Part shown: positions 4,204 to 60,100 of the stretch, piece by piece
Numbering within the stretch: position 1 is the stretch's first letter
Layout: every line of letters begins with the position of its first letter
Origin: Arcicella aurantiaca
Lineage (GTDB): Bacteria > Bacteroidota > Bacteroidia > Cytophagales > Spirosomataceae
Direction: 5' to 3'
DNA: 64,000 bases
NCBI RefSeq assembly: GCF_003148625.1
Contig: NZ_QGGO01000007.1
Span: 62,001 to 126,000 of the forward strand
Position numbers and translations under genes: made by a program
The notes under the pieces: model-generated
Database searches by the model: none
What the model was told of the DNA's origin: nothing
Seen by the model: the letters and a program-made list of their open reading frames with translations, nothing else

Positions 4204-4233
4204 CTCTTAGTACACTGTTTTATAAGTTATTTC

Positions 4234-4267
4234 AACTTCCCGAAAGTTTTAGAACTTTCGGGAAGTT
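4234..4267. repeat. dispersed palindrome, copy 1 (15-bp arms)
   Basis: AACTTCCCGAAAGTT (4234-4248) and its exact reverse complement (4253-4267) flank a 4-nt loop, 30 bases after glpD. A nearly identical palindrome recurs at 21573-21603, also just after a gene end, so this is a dispersed element and not merely a local terminator. Confidence 0.8.
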
Positions 4268-4311
4268 CCCCAATCAAAGGTTTTGGGATAAAAATTATTC
4301 GAACCAATGAT

Positions 4312-4449
4312 TTACTTCTCATTTCTACATCTGTCCGAGCAGTATTTTACTTCTTCCCAAACCTTTTCCCATTTTTTTCGCCACGTAAATGGTCGCCCGC
4401 AAGTGATGCAGACTTTATTGGGCAAATCAGACTTTTTACGCATTTTCAT
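4312..4449 (-). CDS. DUF2256 small zinc-ribbon-like protein
   Basis: A 45-residue protein, [13 protein letters not shown] at its start, with [14 protein letters not shown] in the middle and a YCSDRCR motif near the end. This is the full DUF2256 pattern: two Cys-x2-Cys type pairs (CxxC...CxxxC) around the conserved [11 protein letters not shown] core, a predicted small zinc-binding protein of unknown role. It is encoded opposite to its neighbours in the 400-base gap between glpD and the thioesterase gene. The family is often seen near cryptochrome/photolyase or stress genes, but none is nearby here. Confidence 0.9.
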
Positions 4450-4600
4450 GATATAAAATAATTTTCATAATGTTGATTTTAGATTTGTTAATTCTTCAAG
4501 ATTTGACAAATCTTCATTTGGTTCTAAATAAATAAAGGAATCAACTTATCTTCGGTAAAATAATCAACCATTAAATCGAAAGATTGTTTACTAAAATCAA

Positions 4601-5066: not shown

Positions 5067-7385
5067 ATGAACCGCCATTCATTCGTAAAATTATTTTGTA
5101 GGAAGTCATTTCTACTGCTTTTCCTGTATGCACTCTTGCACGTGTGTATATCTACCCATGCTCAAACGACTCCACCTTCCATTCTTTGGAAAAAAACATT
5201 AGGTGGAACGCTCAACGAAACACTCAATTCAACTTACGAAACAACCGATGGAGGTTACATTTTGGGAGGACAAACGTCTTCTTCTGATGGAGACGTTCAG
5301 GGAAGCCGAAAAGGTCTTTTAGATGCTTGGGTCGTGAAAATTAATGCCACAGGAACAATTGAATGGCAAAAGGATTTTGGAGGCTCACGAGATGACGTTG
5401 TTACGTCGGTCAAAGAAACTTCTGACCAAGGATTTATCGTGGAGGGCTATACGGCATCAACTGATGGAGATTTTTCTACCAATCATGGAGGAACGGATAT
5501 TTTCGTAATAAAACTTTCAAAAACGGGTTTTGTTGAATGGACAAAGTGTTTTGGGGGTACATTAGACGAAAAAAGTGGAGAAATTGTCGTGAGTTCAGAA
5601 GGTGGATATTTGTTTACAGGAAGTGCAAAATCTTTCAATGGAGACCTCACAGGGCAGTCGCCATCTGATGCAGACGCATGGGTCATGAAAATTAGTAGTA
5701 CAGGCACAATTCAATGGCAAAGATTATTCAATGGCCCATATACAGACATTTGCAAAGCTGCCAAACAATTACCAGATAAAAATTATGTTTTGGTGAATAA
5801 CACAGGGACGGTAGCAGGAACGAATCAACGAGAAGATATTTTTGTGTCGATTGTTAAACCTAACGGAAATGTGTCATCACAAGCAAGTTATGGTGGTAGT
5901 CGGCAAGAATTTGCTTCATGCTTGGAACTTACGCCCGATGGCGGTTTTGTAATTTTGGGTAAAACAAATTCAAATAATGGCTCAGTGACCCAAAATCAAG
6001 GAGATTTTGATGTTTGGATTTTGAAAATGAATGCTTCAGCAAGTTTACAATGGAAAAAAACTTTTGGTGGGAGTAGAGTTGACGGCGGTGTTTCAACGGA
6101 AGCTTGGGGCAGTATTCATGCAACTGATGATGATGGGTATATTTTTACGAGTAGTACCAATTCAACCGATGGTGATGTTGCTATACCAACAACTGCTTGG
6201 AGTGGCTCACAAGCACGTGTCTGGGTCGTGAAATTGAATTGTAAGCAAAATATTCAATGGCAACAAGTTTTAGGAGGAAATGCAGGAGATTATGGCATAT
6301 TTGCCAAACAAAATTCTGACCGTAGTTATTTTATCACTGCCAATGCAACCTCTAACGATGGTGATGTTACAGGTAATAAAGGAAGTCGAGATTTTTGGCT
6401 AATTAAAACCAATCCCGAACCTAAATTAAAACCCAATTTGGCAGTTTCAGGTTCTATTCCATTTTGCGAAGGCAATTCTATTAAGCTAAATGGAGATTTA
6501 GGTCCTCTGTACAATTACCAATGGCAAAAAGATGATGTTGACATTCTTGGAGAAACATCAACAAGGTTAACCGTTAGTCAATCAGGGACTTATAAAATAG
6601 TTGCGAAGTCAAAAGATTGTCCAAAACCACAAGCTGATACATCTATAATTGTAGTTGTTACCCCAAAACCAGTCCTTGTTTTACCAAAAGATACTACTTT
6701 TTGTACTACGCCCATGAAATTGATTGTAGGCACAACCACTCCTGTAAGTGGAGCCACCTATGCTTGGTCTTCGGGTGAAACTACCTCTGCAATTACACCA
6801 ACAGCAAACGGAAAATATGAAGTAACGGTATCTGCTGGTGGTTGTGTGGTAAAGACAGCATCAAACGTGAAAAAAGGCACATTACCCCTTGTCAATTTAC
6901 CAACTCAAATTGAAGATTGTTTTGATGTAAGCACCCCTTATATTTTGAGTGCAGGAACTGATGCCACTTGGAAATATCGATGGTTGCCCAATAATGAAAC
7001 TTCCAATAACATAAATATCTCTCAAGCAGGCACTTATAAAGTAAAAGTTACCAATGCGGATAATTGTTCGGTGGAAAAGACCGTGCAAATGATTTTGAAA
7101 TGTGTTTCCAAAATTTATGCTCCTAATATTTTTACCCCCAATGCCGATGGTAACAATGATGCTTTCTTGATTGTAGCACAAGATGTAACTGATTTTGAAC
7201 TAAAAATTTACGACCGTTGGGGTGAATTAGTTTTTATGACTATCTCTCAAACAGATGGTTGGGATGGTGTTTATCGTGGTCAAAATGCACCAGAAGGCAC
7301 TTACACTTGGCAAATGAAATATAAAAATAGTAATCAGCCATTTGAGATACTCACAAAATCAGGAACTGTGATGTTAACAAGATAA
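5067..7385 (+). CDS. T9SS type B-sorted secreted protein with propeller-like repeats
   Basis: 772 residues. Signal peptide 1-33 ends ISTHAQ. Residues about 40-440 contain seven or so degenerate repeats of the form W-x-K-x-x-G-G-x-x-x-D with GGYILGG/GGFVILG and S-x-DGDV loops, the pattern of delta-60 or propeller-like surface repeats. Two Ig-like segments (455-600) follow. The C-terminus (from about 685, APNIFTPNADGNNDAF ... YDRWGELVF ... APEGTYTWQM) is the gliding-motility-associated type B T9SS domain, which targets proteins to the surface through the PorU/PorV machinery or its variants. Function is unknown; probably an adhesin or cell-surface filament component. Confidence 0.9.
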   Translation: MNRHSFVKLFCRKSFLLLFLYALLHVCISTHAQTTPPSILWKKTLGGTLNETLNSTYETTDGGYILGGQTSSSDGDVQGSRKGLLDAWVVKINATGTIEWQKDFGGSRDDVVTSVKETSDQGFIVEGYTASTDGDFSTNHGGTDIFVIKLSKTGFVEWTKCFGGTLDEKSGEIVVSSEGGYLFTGSAKSFNGDLTGQSPSDADAWVMKISSTGTIQWQRLFNGPYTDICKAAKQLPDKNYVLVNNTGTVAGTNQREDIFVSIVKPNGNVSSQASYGGSRQEFASCLELTPDGGFVILGKTNSNNGSVTQNQGDFDVWILKMNASASLQWKKTFGGSRVDGGVSTEAWGSIHATDDDGYIFTSSTNSTDGDVAIPTTAWSGSQARVWVVKLNCKQNIQWQQVLGGNAGDYGIFAKQNSDRSYFITANATSNDGDVTGNKGSRDFWLIKTNPEPKLKPNLAVSGSIPFCEGNSIKLNGDLGPLYNYQWQKDDVDILGETSTRLTVSQSGTYKIVAKSKDCPKPQADTSIIVVVTPKPVLVLPKDTTFCTTPMKLIVGTTTPVSGATYAWSSGETTSAITPTANGKYEVTVSAGGCVVKTASNVKKGTLPLVNLPTQIEDCFDVSTPYILSAGTDATWKYRWLPNNETSNNINISQAGTYKVKVTNADNCSVEKTVQMILKCVSKIYAPNIFTPNADGNNDAFLIVAQDVTDFELKIYDRWGELVFMTISQTDGWDGVYRGQNAPEGTYTWQMKYKNSNQPFEILTKSGTVMLTR

Positions 7386-7990: not shown

Positions 7991-8950
7991 ATGACTTCAC
8001 GAGAAAAAATAAAATTAGTTTTTGATGAAATGGGGAAGGTCGTTGTTGGTCATGAAAAACTGACTAATCGACTTTTAATTGGACTTTTTACGGGTGGTCA
8101 CGTGCTTTTGGAAGGAGTTCCGGGATTGGCTAAGACATTGGCAGTCAATACTTTGTCTAAAATTCTCGCCTTGCATTTTCACCGTATTCAATTTACGCCT
8201 GATTTACTTCCTGCCGACCTTATCGGGACAATGATTTATAGCCGTAAATCAGATGATTTTGAGGTAAAAAAAGGACCAATTTTTGCCAATATCATCCTTG
8301 CCGATGAAATAAATAGAGCTCCAGCTAAAGTACAATCTGCATTGTTGGAAGCCATGCAAGAAAAACAAGTTACCATCGGTGACGAAACTTATCCTCTTGA
8401 TAAACCATTTTTGGTATTAGCGACTCAAAATCCCGTTGAACAGGAGGGAACATTCCCATTGCCCGAAGCACAAGTGGATAGATTTATGCTCAAGGTTTTT
8501 GTGGATTATCTGAATAAAGAGCAAGAATTGGAAGTGATGCGAAAAATGTCAAATATGGAGTTTAGCTATCAGCCAAAAGCCATTTTGAGTAAAGAAGATA
8601 TTTTTGAAATTCGTAAAGAAATTAATAATATCACCATTTCTGAAACCTTAGAAAAATATATTATTGAGTTGATTTTTGCCACTCGTAAACCTGCCGACTA
8701 TGGAATGCGAGAAGAAGGTCGTTATGTTCAGTTTGGGGCATCGCCACGGGCGAGTATCAACATGAATTTGGCTTCTAAAGTATTGGCGTATTTAGATGGT
8801 AGAGATTACGTTTTGCCAGAAGATATTAAAGAAATTGCTCCAGATGTTCTAAATCATAGAATTATGCTCAATTACGAAGCCGAAGCCGATGGAATTACCA
8901 CCATGCAAGTAATTGACACTATTTTGAGACGTGTCGCTATTGGAAGGTAG
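7991..8950 (+). CDS. MoxR-family AAA+ ATPase
   Basis: 319 residues. Walker A is EGVPGLAKT (about 37-45), Walker B IILADEINRAP (about 100-110), sensor 1 ATQNPVEQEGTFPLPEAQ (about 137), and the C-terminal lid contains the GASPRA motif (about 254) seen in MoxR/RavA proteins. These ATPases act as chaperones maturing metal- or von-Willebrand-domain proteins and usually stand first in a moxR-DUF58-BatA-type operon. Here the next 320 bases are repeats and the following gene is convergent, so the partner genes are missing from the locus. Confidence 0.92.
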   Translation: MTSREKIKLVFDEMGKVVVGHEKLTNRLLIGLFTGGHVLLEGVPGLAKTLAVNTLSKILALHFHRIQFTPDLLPADLIGTMIYSRKSDDFEVKKGPIFANIILADEINRAPAKVQSALLEAMQEKQVTIGDETYPLDKPFLVLATQNPVEQEGTFPLPEAQVDRFMLKVFVDYLNKEQELEVMRKMSNMEFSYQPKAILSKEDIFEIRKEINNITISETLEKYIIELIFATRKPADYGMREEGRYVQFGASPRASINMNLASKVLAYLDGRDYVLPEDIKEIAPDVLNHRIMLNYEAEADGITTMQVIDTILRRVAIGR

Positions 8951-9272
8951 ATTGGTTACTGGTTATTAGTAGATTGGTTACTGGTTACTGGTTATTAGTA
9001 GATTGGTTACTGGATATTGGTAGATTGGTTACTGGATATTGGTAGATTGGTTATTGGTTACTGGATATTGGTAGATTGGTTATTGGATATTGGTAGATTG
9101 GTTACTGGATATTGGTAGATTGGTTACTGGATATTGGTTACTGGATATTGGTTACTGGTAGATTGGTTATTGGTAGATTGGTTATTGGGGAGTTTTATAC
9201 AATACTTCACCAATTAACTAATTCTCCAATAACCAATAACCAATATCCAATAACCAATAACTAATAACTAAT
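8951..9272. repeat. repeat array of GATTGGTTA(C/T)TGG words folding back on itself
   Basis: From the moxR stop codon to about 9190 the sequence is made of variants of ATTGGTTACTGG, GATATTGGTTA and TTATTAGTAGATTGG. After a short unrelated spacer (about 9191-9214) the same words appear as reverse complement (9215-9270: CCAATAACCAATAACC, CCAATATCCAATAACC). The two halves can pair as a long imperfect stem with small bulges. It fills the entire space between two convergent genes and may work as a bidirectional terminator. It encodes nothing convincing in any frame. Confidence 0.9.
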
Positions 9273-9749
9273 CTAAAACGCTAACATTTTTACGGCTGTA
9301 ATGGCTGCTTCATCACCTTTATTGCCATGAATTCCTCCCGCACGGTCAAGTGCTTGTTGTTCCGTATTGGGCGTTAATACCCCAAAAATTACAGGTTTAT
9401 CGTATTTTAAACTCACGTTTGTCAATCCCTGAGCCACGGCGTGATTGATATAATCATTGTGTTTTGTTTCTCCCTGAATTACGCAACCAATGCAAATAAC
9501 GGCATCAATGTCATTTTTTTGAGCCATTTTCTGAGCTGCAAAAGTCAACTCATAACTACCCGGAACATTTGCTCTAACGATATTTTCTGGTTTTGCTCCG
9601 TACTCCAAAAGCGTTTTTGCTGCACCTTGTGCAAGAGCTTCTGTTACTTGTTCATTCCATTCTGCTACTACTAATGCAAAACGTTTTTCACTAATATCTG
9701 GAAGATTATCCGTTGAAAAGATACTTAAATTTTTATGTGCTGAAGACAT
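9273..9749 (-). CDS. ribH: 6,7-dimethyl-8-ribityllumazine synthase
   Basis: 158 residues from ATG 9749 (seven extra residues would come from a weaker upstream start). RibH condenses 5-amino-6-ribitylamino-uracil with 3,4-dihydroxy-2-butanone 4-phosphate, the penultimate riboflavin step. Typical segments are RFALVVAEWNEQVTEAL, the substrate loop VPGSYELTFAAQ, VICIGCVIQGETKHNDYIN and FGVLTPNTEQQALDRAGG. It lies downstream of a membrane-anchored TPR protein on the same strand, a pairing common in Bacteroidetes, but a hairpin between them (9795-9828) may uncouple expression. The other rib genes are elsewhere. Confidence 0.96.
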   Translation of the reverse strand: MSSAHKNLSIFSTDNLPDISEKRFALVVAEWNEQVTEALAQGAAKTLLEYGAKPENIVRANVPGSYELTFAAQKMAQKNDIDAVICIGCVIQGETKHNDYINHAVAQGLTNVSLKYDKPVIFGVLTPNTEQQALDRAGGIHGNKGDEAAITAVKMLAF

Positions 9750-9794
9750 GATTTTAATTAAAATTAACAAGTGATAATTGATAACCGAAAAAAG

Positions 9795-10743: not shown

Positions 10744-11090
10744 GTCTGTTTAGAGAATAGAGAATAGAGTTTAGATTATAGAGAGTAGAGTTTAGATTAT
10801 AGAGAGTAGAGTTTAGAGAATAGATGTTAGAGTATTTTCATTCAACTGTGTCAAGTATTTTTAAAAGTGGTCTCATTGCCTTGAAATAAACATTTTTGAA
10901 ACCAAAAGTAGAAATTGACACAGTTTGATGAAAAGACCCAGATGTTAAAGTAAATAGTGATGTTTTTTCTCTAACCTCTAATCTCTGTAATCTGTTCTCT
11001 AACCTCTAATCTCTGTAATCTAATATCTATTCTCTAATCTCTGTAATCTATTCTCTAAACTCTAACCTCTAATATCTATTCTCTAAAAAA
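10744..11090. repeat. large composite inverted repeat of AGAGAATAGAG/TTTAGAG words
   Basis: Bases 10753-10830 are built from AGAGAATAGAG, TTTAGATTATAGAG and AGAGTAGAG words; bases 10960-11088 contain their reverse complements (CTCTAATCTCTGTAATCT, CTCTAAACTCTAACC). The middle has its own inverted repeat: CATTCAACTGTGTCAA (10839-10854) against TTGACACAGTTTGATG (10915-10930), 14 of 16 positions paired. It occupies most of the 530-base gap between two minus-strand genes. No open frame in it looks coding. Confidence 0.88.
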
Positions 11091-13307: not shown

Positions 13308-13351
13308 GTAGCACAGGTTTTAACCTGTTTGGAATATAGATAATGTGCTAC
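13308..13351. repeat. nested palindrome between TPR and DUF4292 genes
   Basis: Outer arms GTAGCACA (13308-13315) and TGTGCTAC (13344-13351) enclose an inner palindrome AGGTTTTAACCT (13315-13326). The core CACAGGTTT..AACCTG also appears at 35481-35581. It overlaps the region just before the DUF4292 start. Confidence 0.7.
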
Positions 13352-13352
13352 T

Positions 13353-21504: not shown

Positions 21505-21572
21505 TCGTAACTCGATGTTTTCGCATCGAAATTGAATGATTTTTTTGCAAAGAAATAACAAGAGTAGTTTCA

Positions 21573-21603
21573 ACTTCCCGAAAGTTTTAAACTTTCGGGA
21601 AGT
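21573..21603. repeat. dispersed palindrome, copy 2
   Basis: ACTTCCCGAAAGTT (21573-21586) and its exact reverse complement (21590-21603) with a 3-nt loop; same sequence family as 4234-4267. It follows rseP by 68 bases. Confidence 0.8.
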
Positions 21604-21615
21604 CACTAAATCAAT

Positions 21616-24619: not shown

Positions 24620-24641
24620 TTATTTGAATTTTGGAGGATAA

Positions 24642-24649
24642 CAAATATA
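24642..24649 (-). promoter_or_regulatory. candidate -7 box of mcrBC
   Basis: Minus-strand TATATTTG fits TAnnTTTG, 22 bases before the mcrB ATG. No perfect -33 element was seen. Confidence 0.45.
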
Positions 24650-24673
24650 GTCAAAAGAGTTTTACATTAGTCA

Positions 24674-24704
24674 TAAAAAAAGAGCCTTGACATTGTCAAG
24701 ACTC
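24674..24704 (-). terminator. terminator of lipoprotein copy A
   Basis: On the minus strand GAGTCTTGACA pairs with TGTCAAGGCTC (one G-T wobble) and is followed by seven Ts. It lies between the lipoprotein stop and mcrB promoter region. Confidence 0.75.
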
Positions 24705-24741
24705 CCTTGTGTTTTCTTTCGAAAGAAACTTTTGGTACTAA

Positions 24742-24924
24742 TTACTTAGCAGCAGCAGTATCAGCAGCCATAGCAGCAGCAGTATCAACAACAGCAGCAG
24801 TATCAACAGCAACAGTAGTATCAACAGTTACTGAATCAGTTGCAGTAGTTTCAGCTTTTTTCTCAGAACAAGCAGCTAATGACATCATTGAAGCTACTAA
24901 TGCGAATGCAAAGAATTTTTTCAT
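24742..24924 (-). CDS. small Ala/Thr/Val-rich lipoprotein, tandem copy A
   Basis: 60 residues from ATG 24924. Signal peptide with lipobox (MKKFFAFALVASMMSLAAC), then SEKKAET and a low-complexity tail of VDT(A/T)A units ending AMAADTAAAK. It resembles the entericidin-like small lipoproteins that are abundant in Bacteroidetes outer membranes. The preceding copy B encodes the same protein apart from the last residues. Bases 24772-24926 are identical to 25090-25244. Tail length differs between copies, consistent with slippage in the GCAGCAGTATCAACA units. Confidence 0.85.
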   Translation of the reverse strand: MKKFFAFALVASMMSLAACSEKKAETTATDSVTVDTTVAVDTAAVVDTAAAMAADTAAAK

Positions 24925-24926
24925 TT
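24772..24926. repeat. 155-bp exact direct repeat, unit A
   Basis: By direct reading this stretch is identical to 25090-25244 at every base, including synonymous positions and the first bases upstream of the start codon. It spans the signal peptide and most of the lipoprotein tail. Confidence 0.9.
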
Positions 24927-24998
24927 TTATTGTTAAGTTATTGTAATAATTTCTCAAATATTGTTTTTCTAAAGAAGGAGAATTTTAAATCTTAAAGC

Positions 24999-25028
24999 AT
25001 AAAAGTCCTGACTGTGTCAAGACTTTTA
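24999..25028 (-). terminator. terminator of lipoprotein copy B
   Basis: Minus-strand AAAAGTCTTGAC pairs with GTCAGGACTTTT (one mismatch). The stem is related to, but not the same as, the terminator of copy A. Confidence 0.65.
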
Positions 25029-25062
25029 TATGTTCTCTTTCGAAAGAAACTATTGGCTCTAA

Positions 25063-25242
25063 TTACTTAGCAGCAGCAGCAGTATCAACAGCAGCAGCAG
25101 TATCAACAACAGCAGCAGTATCAACAGCAACAGTAGTATCAACAGTTACTGAATCAGTTGCAGTAGTTTCAGCTTTTTTCTCAGAACAAGCAGCTAATGA
25201 CATCATTGAAGCTACTAATGCGAATGCAAAGAATTTTTTCAT
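25063..25242 (-). CDS. small Ala/Thr/Val-rich lipoprotein, tandem copy B
   Basis: 59 residues from ATG 25242. Same signal peptide and SEKKAET linker as copy A; the tail ends VVDTAAAVDTAAAAK. A TAAATTTG promoter element lies 31 bases upstream, which copy A lacks, so copy B may be the ancestral gene and copy A could depend on readthrough or its own weaker promoter. The stop is followed by the palindrome CTTTCGAAAG, also present after copy A. Confidence 0.85.
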   Translation of the reverse strand: MKKFFAFALVASMMSLAACSEKKAETTATDSVTVDTTVAVDTAAVVDTAAAVDTAAAAK

Positions 25243-25244
25243 TT
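25090..25244. repeat. 155-bp exact direct repeat, unit B
   Basis: Identical to 24772-24926. The spacing between the two units is about 318 bases start to start. Confidence 0.9.
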
Positions 25245-25272
25245 CTGTGGTGAATTTGGGTTTGATTTGATA

Positions 25273-25280
25273 CAAATTTA
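25273..25280 (-). promoter_or_regulatory. candidate -7 box of lipoprotein copy B
   Basis: Minus-strand TAAATTTG fits TAnnTTTG; a near-match CTTG to the -33 TTTG lies about 20 bases further upstream (25301-25304 read as CAAG on plus). Confidence 0.5.
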
Positions 25281-25495
25281 TGTACAAGTTTTATTCTGTG
25301 CAAGAAATCTTAATGAAATTTTAATAATTCTTAAAAGTTCTTTCTTTTTGATTGGTTTTTCTAAAAAAAGTACAAATTTTTTCTTAAAACTACCTTAAAC
25401 TTAAGGGTATTTTCACCTTTTGAAGATATTTGAAGATGTTTTTTGACTACTTAAATCTTGGATAAGTAATATTTATGATTTTTTTTCATCAAAAA

Positions 25496-25519
25496 AGGCT
25501 TTCGCTAAAACGAAAGCCT
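25496..25519 (-). terminator. terminator of nuo-gtrA transcript
   Basis: AGGCTTTCG (25496-25504) and CGAAAGCCT (25511-25519) form a 9-bp stem; the minus strand continues with a run of Ts. It follows the gtrA-like stop by 15 bases. Confidence 0.8.
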
Positions 25520-25533
25520 CTTAAATTTCATGC

Positions 25534-27452: not shown

Positions 27453-27596
27453 ATTAGGGGTTAGGGGTTAGGGGTTAGGGGTTAGTACAAGTTAGTAGTT
27501 ATCGGTTTGGTACAATTATTTGTATAAATGTTCGACCGAAATTCTATATCTTGATTTCTAAAACCTAAAACCAAATACCTAAAACCTCTATTACTT
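27453..27596. repeat. GGGGTTA word repeat with reverse-complement tail
   Basis: Between nuoM and nuoN, GGGGTTA occurs four times in tandem (27457-27485), and 27558-27596 carries CCTAAAACC-type words of the opposite orientation. The two parts can pair imperfectly. Similar CCCCTAA words occur at 31096-31131. Confidence 0.75.
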
Positions 27597-34200: not shown

Positions 34201-34260
34201 TAACACAGACTTCAGTCTGTCTGTAACGATTAACGGACAGACTGAAGTTTGTGTTACTAT
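34197..34260. terminator. 25-bp-arm palindrome holding the stop codons of two convergent genes
   Basis: Arms 34197-34221 and 34236-34260 pair at 24 of 25 positions around a 14-nt loop. The plus-strand stop TAG (34198-34200) and the minus-strand stop of cutC (34257-34259) both fall inside the arms. It should act as a bidirectional terminator and mRNA 3' stabiliser. Confidence 0.85.
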
Positions 34261-42283: not shown

Positions 42284-42301
42284 TGGAAATTGTGTTGAAG
42301 T

Positions 42302-42390
42302 TTTAGTTTTTAGGGGTAGGTTTTAGAAATTAGGTATTGATTTTACTCCCTAACAGATTCCTAAAACCTAACCTCTAAAACCTTAAAATA
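42302..42390. repeat. TTTAGGGGTAGG / CCTAAAACC inverted word repeat
   Basis: Bases 42303-42336 (TTTTTAGGGGTAGG, TTTTAGAAATTAGG) are mirrored as reverse complement in 42346-42384 (CCCTAACAG, CCTAAAACCTAACCTC). It fills the ssb-gldE gap. Confidence 0.65.
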
Positions 42391-44616: not shown

Positions 44617-44741
44617 TTTAGTTAATAGTTATTGGTTATTAGTTTACAAATTTTTGTCTGAAACTATTAATTATTACAATAGGTTTGATAATTATTCCCA
44701 ACTAATAACTAATAACCTACAACAACTAACTATCTTTATAG
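44617..44741. repeat. GTTATTGGTTATTAG word pair in opposite orientations
   Basis: GTTAATAGTTATTGG (44620s) is followed about 60 bases later by ACTAATAACTAATAACC (44701-44717). It fills the gap between HU and the TPR gene. Confidence 0.6.
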
Positions 44742-45596: not shown

Positions 45597-45759
45597 AGTT
45601 CAAATTGCAGAGAATAGATTGTAGAGTAAAGATTATATAGAAAAGAAGTTATATTCAGTATATTATGCTCAATGATTACAAACTTGGTTTCTATCATCTA
45701 ATCTCTAAACTCTATCATCTAATCAAATATTTTTTTAACATTTAAAACCTTTTACAATC
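45597..45759. repeat. AGAGAATAGATTGTAGAG words with reverse-complement CTAATCTCTAAACTC
   Basis: Short words at 45609-45635 recur as complement at 45696-45724. It uses the same AGAGAATAGA vocabulary as 10744-11090. Confidence 0.6.
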
Positions 45760-59957: not shown

Positions 59958-60100
59958 AATTTAGGGATTAGGTGTTGGGGATTAGGGAGAAGTTAGCGAG
60001 TAAAGAGGTAAATATTGAGTTGTCAAAATCTCAAATTTATATCCAAATTTCTAATACCCAATTCCTGAATCCTAACCACCAATCACTAAACACTTAAAAA
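59958..60100. repeat. TTTAGGGATTAGG / CCTAATCCC inverted word repeat
   Basis: TTTAGGGATTAGG and GGGGATTAGGG (59960-59990) are mirrored by CTAATACCCAATTCC and CCTAACCACC (60048-60082). Fills the gap between panB and the pseudouridine synthase gene. Confidence 0.7.

Follow-up and report, generated by a model that had tools for sequence, protein, structure and literature searches.

Hairpins of seven-nucleotide words between genes of Arcicella aurantiaca and the exchange of their words at orthologous gaps

How an intergenic gap comes to be filled by short, near-repeated words on one side and by their complement on the other is the question raised by positions 8951-9272 of the window, the 64,000-nucleotide stretch of Arcicella aurantiaca DNA analysed here. 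The host, a freshwater bacterium of the order Cytophagales, has a genome of 5.93 Mb. The gap lies between convergent genes for a MoxR-type AAA ATPase (7991-8950, plus strand) and ribH (9273-9770, minus strand; Pfam assignment for the flanking gene) and is made up of three features:

8951..9190, plus strand: 5′ arm of a heptad hairpin, 32 words (by tiling and TRF), starting right after the ATPase stop codon
9191..9208, no strand: unpaired spacer (loop) between the arms, 18 nt
9209..9272, plus strand: 3′ arm, CCAATAA/CCAATAT/CTAATAA words, abutting the ribH stop codon

Tiling of 8951-9190 left no remainder and yielded TGGTTAC ten times, TGGATAT seven times, TGGTTAT six times, TGGTAGAT seven times and TAGTAGAT twice, together with end pieces. 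These TGG or TAG words are 7 or 8 nt long, and TGGTTAC-TGGATAT-TGGTAGAT forms a higher-order unit of 22 nt that is missing from the 3′ arm. The reverse complement of 9209-9272 comprises eight words, TAGTTAT TAGTTAT TGGTTAT TGGATAT TGGTTAT TGGTTAT TGGAGAAT TAGTTAAT. Because the 22-nt unit occurs in the left arm alone, and 32 words face 8, the two arms have expanded separately. An earlier note, made from the letters of the window, had described this gap as words followed by their complement, which is borne out by the complete tiling, by an inverted-repeat score of 37.2 (at most 17.0 in 100 dinucleotide shuffles) and by a lag-7 identity of 0.58 (at most 0.35 in 100 such shuffles). The RNA fold z was −6.8. 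A search of the gap for a terminator-like site, consisting of a G-C stem followed by a T-tract, found none, and Rfam gave 0 matches across the 64-kb window.

Further word arrays and fold-backs were located in the window:

10750..10836, plus strand: 5′ arm of a heptad hairpin, TAGAGAA/TAGAGTT/TAGATTA words
10980..11065, plus strand: 3′ arm of the same hairpin, TCTCTAA/CCTCTAA words, the array going on to about 11086
27454..27485, plus strand: TTAGGGG array of 4.6 copies on the 5′ side of its gap, where the sister genome G005 has TATCAGT words
27558..27587, plus strand: CTAAAACCTAAAACC array on the 3′ side of that gap
42301..42330, plus strand: 5′ arm of a heptad hairpin, TTTTAGG words
42357..42388, plus strand: 3′ arm of that hairpin, CCTAAAA words
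44619..44644, plus strand: 5′ arm of a hairpin, TAGTTAT/TGGTTAT words; four sisters carry TTTATGAG words
44707..44732, plus strand: 3′ arm of that hairpin, AACTAAT words
45609..45618, plus strand: AGAGAATAGA word of a further short fold-back, common to the 10744 gap
59961..59985, plus strand: 5′ arm of a heptad hairpin, TTAGGGA/TTGGGGA words
60051..60075, plus strand: 3′ arm of that hairpin, CCTAA-type words

Twelve gaps had been named in the earlier note as long palindromes made of words. Ten, including 8951, scored clearly above all 40 shuffles; 13308 was marginal (8.0 vs 7.0), and 16981 fell below (8.4 vs 10.0). Construction from words held for 8951, 10744, 27453, 42302 and 59958, whereas 1966, 4234, 13308, 34197 and 35481 each consist of one palindrome, in most cases of the REP/MITE type. 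Gap 37069 is an intermediate case, a hairpin of 8-9-nt words, and two word arrays lie outside the list (44617 and, judged by eye, 45597). The earlier observation mixes two classes, namely heptad hairpins and REP/MITE-like dispersed palindromes. Among the words said to be common to distant gaps, AGAGAATAGA (10744 and 45609) gave 7 matches against 0.08 expected, and AACTTCCCGAAAGTT (4234 and 21573) is genuinely shared but as part of a dispersed palindromic element. The sharing of CCCCTAA (27457 and 31096) was not significant, with 9 matches against 4.85 expected and 7 of 100 shuffles reaching 9.

Genome-wide counts were made on a 464-kb sample of the host genome containing 285 gaps, in which heptad hairpins were assigned by an automatic rule. 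Intergenic identity peaked at lag 7, with harmonics at 14, 21 and 28, whereas coding DNA displayed period 3 only. Period-7 arrays numbered 48, against 1.7 by chance; period 8 was modestly raised (10 vs 2.6), and periods 5, 6 and 9-12 did not exceed chance. That such structures fill most gaps was an overstatement: heptad hairpins occupied 38 of the 285 gaps, and a hairpin score of at least 13 of any kind, which roughly 10% of shuffled gaps also attain, was found in 135. The 5′-arm words of the 38 belong to TTAGG-like (12), CAGTTA-like (6), TAGTTAT (4), TATGAG (4) and GTGAATT (4) families plus single cases, giving at least eight families in one genome; identical words in reverse order occurred twice among the heptad hairpins. 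A limited lexicon was not supported statistically in tests of heptamer sharing between hairpins beyond composition, first-order shuffles sharing more, and exact TTAGGGATTAGGGATTAGG, found in 4 of 296 genomes with a reversed control about equal, was too rare to inform on it.

The arms of heptad hairpins have a marked polarity. In the 5′ arm, G exceeded C in 29 cases versus 5 and T exceeded A in 28 versus 9, whereas other hairpins lacked this polarity (G over C, 51 vs 42; T over A, 39 vs 58). Polarity was common to the hairpins, with 128 pairs against 77 under random flips, and was also seen in single arrays sorted by gap side, including those in gaps with non-complementary arms. Since a hairpin reads the same on both strands, the polarity is independent of gene direction.

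Placement relative to genes was similarly distinctive. Between co-directional genes, heptad hairpins started a median of 4.5 nt past the stop codon, against 26 nt for other hairpins (p = 3.6e-4), and ended a median of 20 nt ahead of the next start. The stop codon was overrun by some arrays; at locus L118, a CAGTTATCAGTGAA array around the gap 6913-7147 crosses the stop codon and reaches into the last part of the reading frame before it. On approximate ORF calls, heptad hairpins were present in 7 of 49 convergent, 26 of 185 tandem and 5 of 51 divergent gaps, the last comparing with 33 of 234 for all others. A T5 tract stood at the base of 3 of 38 heptad hairpins and 21 of 97 other hairpins (p = 0.08, suggestive only). 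The earlier assertion that the structures are more than ordinary terminators is upheld for the word arrays by the flagged gap, which has no terminator-like site, by the scarcity of T-tracts and by a polarity opposite to that of A...T bidirectional terminators. At L119:18132-18347 and L125:2831-3029, heptamer arms enclose a bidirectional terminator of the ordinary kind (AAAAAAGCCAGTT...AACTGGCTTTTTT) and look as though they had grown around a hairpin already in place.

Orthologous gaps were identified through flanking genes in eight Arcicella genomes, A. rosea S00070 being G001 and G005 the closest relative by flanking proteins (96% identity). The earlier note had proposed comparing the same gaps in relatives and had taken a lack of fold-back there as speaking against its observation; fold-back was mostly kept, and the words differed. 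At gap 44617, TAGTTAT/TGGTTAT words are present in the host, G006 and G004, and TTTATGAG words in G005, G007, G003 and G002. Gap 59958 contains TTAGGG in the host, G002 and G004, TCGTAAG-type words in G005 and GGATT-type words in G006; in A. rosea it is 51 nt long, with a weak short hairpin and no heptad array. At gap 8951, TGGTTAT in the host corresponds to an ACAGATT-type palindrome in G005, TTCGATG in G002 and G004 and a remnant in G006. At gap 27443, TTAGGGG follows ATCAGT in the host, and TATCAGT copies are followed by TTAGGGA in G005; these mixed words suggest word takeover between vocabularies.

A strong fold was found in almost every sister at gaps 42284, 44617 and 59958, at an identity to the host that was often near random, whereas divergent gaps behaved in the opposite way, with sequence kept and mostly no fold. 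Under a strict rule, and on few gaps with several related species per gap, a sister carried a heptad hairpin in 14 of 37 cases where the host has one and in 1 of 52 otherwise (p = 9e-6); any hairpin was present in 26 of the 37. Median 7-mer overlap between species was 0.09 at heptad gaps, against 0.26 in divergent gaps. In 25 of 28 comparisons (p = 4e-7), run on arms not picked for complementarity, the two arms of one species were more complementary to each other than the mean of cross-species pairings of 5′ with 3′ arm at that gap. Both arms change together, which calls either for arm-to-arm copying or for exchange of the entire hairpin in one step. With flanking genes ∼10-20% divergent, single mutational steps lie beyond the resolution of this comparison.

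Heptad hairpins were common in the host and likewise in two other genomes, Arcicella G006, where 10 of 71 gaps carried one, and Fibrella, where 6 of 27 did. By contrast, A. rosea had one in 92 gaps (p = 2.5e-4 against the 38 of 285 in the host), and they were nearly absent from most other Cytophagales sampled, the non-Arcicella samples being small (about 20-40 kb). Such near-absence calls for a difference between lineages, which neither SbcD nor reverse transcriptase supplied, and this weighs against the explanation favoured below. Loss of SbcD as a permissive factor was rejected, SbcD being intact in the host and present in all genomes searched but one, which is incomplete.

The explanation favoured here, to which we would give an even chance, is that the word arrays are fast-evolving tandem-repeat hairpins generated by 7-nt slippage and intrastrand (snap-back) template switching and tolerated between genes. 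A 7-nt word beside a gene end would be multiplied by slippage; the nascent G/T-rich strand would fold back and copy the array, laying down its complement across the gap, and G·T wobbles may, we infer, let this strand prime on itself. Repeated snap-back copying would keep the arms alike, and slippage of whole words would lengthen each arm alone, producing unequal arms and higher-order units. Occasional takeover by another word would change the vocabulary while the fold-back stayed. As coding sequence and promoters bound the arrays, these would take up the room that begins at the stop codon. Such a cause would need neither a dedicated enzyme nor an essential function. Intrastrand template switching should favour G-C and U-A pairs with G/U placed 5′, correction being to the 5′ base (Monttinen and Loytynoja, PMC8794818); the polarity of the arrays is the bias derived there, in an argument that concerned RNA stems under selection. 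The period of 7 is left unexplained by slippage; a polymerase footprint has been proposed as its origin, as cited in PMC4679880 and PMC4692102. Persistence of a hairpin at one gap could reflect selection for the hairpin instead.

The main competing explanation is that selection maintains the hairpins for a role at mRNA 3′ ends. Heptad hairpins would then protect mRNA 3′ ends, act in Rho-type or hairpin-only termination or block convergent read-through, and their words would be free to change because only the fold matters. The start close behind stop codons and the C/A-rich 3′ arms fit such elements, although T-tracts are rare and the flagged gap is devoid of a terminator-like site. Folds are stronger in convergent than in divergent gaps (median z −6.5 vs −1.2), yet heptad hairpins show no enrichment in convergent gaps, as the counts above indicate. 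Retention of the fold, often at near-random identity, at 42284, 44617 and 59958, in contrast to divergent gaps, which retain sequence and mostly have no fold, also agrees with selection, as does the occurrence of classical terminators, REP palindromes and heptad hairpins at one and the same orthologous gap (13289, 12326 and 27443). However, A. rosea manages almost without heptad hairpins, and the polarity extends to arrays in gaps with non-complementary arms. On this evidence selected 3′-end elements are a possible, though improbable, account. We put forward with comparable reserve that the 3′ ends of genes, in Arcicella and some of its relatives, are served by hairpins that keep their fold and place while intrastrand template switching exchanges their sequence one word at a time, with a small heptamer lexicon in common.

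The REP/MITE-like dispersed palindromes (4234, 13308, 34201 and 35481) are a class apart from heptad hairpins, and include the following:

4234..4267, no strand: AACTTCCCGAAAGTT palindrome of a dispersed REP/MITE-like element, with a second copy at 21572-21604
13308..13352, no strand: GTAG-tagged REP-like palindrome (GTAGCACAGGTTTTAACCTGT...)
34201..34256, no strand: AGACTTCAGTCTGT dispersed palindrome

In the gaps named by the earlier note, such elements comprise AACTTCCCGAAAGTT, ACAGACTTCAGTCTGT, CAGGTTTCCAACCTG and GTAG-tagged hairpins. They are similar, in some families near-identical, dispersed copies of up to 185 nt at 97%, whereas heptad arrays resemble one another at the word level only. 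A link of the arrays to RAYT genes, raised in that note, was not supported. Seven Y1_Tnp (RAYT-family) matches are present in the host, as are REP-like palindromes, some of them GTAG-tagged, and repeated palindromes flank the two strongest RAYT loci; these palindromes, however, have no words in common with the arrays, and the other five loci, when viewed, contained no heptad arrays. A. rosea has six RAYT-family matches yet is nearly array-free, and heptad hairpins, by eye, lack a fixed foot tetranucleotide. It is thus very unlikely that the arrays are mobile palindromes spread by a Y1 transposase, and a RAYT as their driver is rejected on distribution and flank anatomy. RAYT or related mobilisation may apply to the REP-like class.

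At one RAYT locus (L151, G000:C15:68200-72200), a RAYT-type gene follows a tandem BIME-like array in the gap 920-1811 that mixes GTAGATTAAAATCTACCGCTACA and AAGTTCCGTAGGAACGGACA palindromes; at another RAYT locus, L150, the repeat array is a different one, of CTACGAAGCA. Four places, L118:5142-5335, L119:8445-8674, L132:15020-15301 and L123:8181-8571, carry a dispersed palindrome of ∼190 nt (ATAGACCACAGATTGAACGGATTTTACAGATT..., flanks CGGAACAATA...GTTTGTC) at 76-85% identity, and its ACAGATT vocabulary is like that in gap 8951 of G005. Comparison of window positions 4204-4600 with sister locus L033 revealed a AACTTCCCGAAA palindrome common to both, the loop in L033 having three inserted CCATAACGGAGTTA-type copies.

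The G-rich words might alternatively form G-quadruplexes or i-motifs, as proposed for the Xanthomonas GGGAATC repeats. TTAGGG-like words are the commonest family (12 of 38), and the placement rule is that of Rehm et al. (PMC4692102), but the CAGTTAT, TAGTTAT, TATGAGT and GTGAATT families have no G-runs, and words with and without G-runs swap at one gap, which makes this explanation slightly harder still to credit than mobile palindromes. Least credible is a dedicated templated enzyme, telomerase-like or a defence reverse transcriptase, that writes heptamers into gaps: it would suit the perfect single-period tiling and the tally of RVT_1 genes (two in the host, one in heptad-rich G006, none in A. 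rosea), but the many word families per genome would require many templates, and a reverse transcriptase is rejected as the source by the lack of any match in the carriers G003, G004, G005 and G007 and in the heptad-rich Fibrella G015.

Cyanobacterial genomes may show the same many-word pattern. The anatomy of the arrays is already known from heptamers of Xanthomonas and Nostoc, GGGAATC and GGGGA(C/T)T, which are intergenic, lie beside or overlap stop codons on the coding strand and stand on the non-coding strand upstream of ORFs, with many inverted convergent pairs; they vary in length and sequence at the same genes between related species (Rehm et al. 2015, PMC4692102). Likeness to the Arcicella arrays extends to 7-nt intergenic units, inverted convergent pairs and a G-rich strand directed outward from gene ends near stop codons. 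Scarcity between divergent genes is a further trait of the Rehm type, to be set beside the 5 of 51 divergent and 33 of 234 other gaps counted above on approximate ORF calls. They differ in having one word family per organism, a single quadruplex-capable G-run word, whereas Arcicella has its eight or more families, several without G-runs, exchanged at orthologous gaps. Exchange of heptamer classes is known in one Nostoc stem, P6b of the tRNA-Leu (trnL) intron, with Class I (TDNGATT) and Class II (NNTGAGT) repeats (Kaasalainen et al. 2015, PMC4476775). There, too, heptamer words form complementary arms, and word classes have been replaced independently with the fold kept, but at a single group I intron site rather than at many intergenic sites in another phylum. 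Direct repeats of TAACTGA, mostly upstream of start codons, were reported from Beggiatoaceae, Cyanobacteria and five Bacteroidetes, with horizontal transfer suggested (MacGregor 2015, PMC4679880); the CAGTTAT/AACTGAT family of Arcicella is the same heptamer in another register or strand, but sits in fold-back pairs as one family among several.

Heptamers are over-represented among prokaryotic long simple sequence repeats, for which polymerase slippage was proposed (Mrazek and colleagues, as cited in PMC4679880 and PMC4692102; PMC4060949). Arcicella likewise has 7-nt tandem units in excess in intergenic DNA; paired arms, polarity and comparison of orthologous gaps do not feature in those accounts as represented in these sources. 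GTAG/CGTC REP elements with RAYTs are intergenic palindromes mostly downstream of genes (PMC3733652); such elements coexist with the arrays in the Arcicella genome but, unlike the gap-specific heptad arrays, consist of short, scattered copies that bear a tetranucleotide tag and go with a transposase. A literature search, which most subscription journals lay outside, found no published account for Bacteroidota beyond TAACTGA. What is new is the genome-wide, many-family form, in which words are exchanged at orthologous gaps and the two arms change jointly.

If the proposal of conserved hairpins with replaceable words is true, Arcicella would offer a genome-wide instance in which structure is inherited and sequence is not. 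The heptad hairpins provide dozens of sites per genome at which the proposed making and maintenance of hairpins through template switching can be followed between close species. The pattern joins three scattered reports, on the Xanthomonas/Nostoc heptamers, Nostoc P6b and the TAACTGA repeats, under a common rule of 7-nt words with the G/T-rich strand leading away from the gene and its complement across the gap. It is a warning, too, that an RNA fold conserved while the sequence is not does not by itself prove a functional RNA, and it turns the 7-nt period into a testable question.

Elsewhere in the window, positions 24620-25533 contain two adjacent, near-identical minus-strand stretches with many CAGCAGCAGTATCAAC repeats, which resemble a duplicated gene for a small, low-complexity, secreted or lipoprotein-like peptide that was not called at 80 aa.
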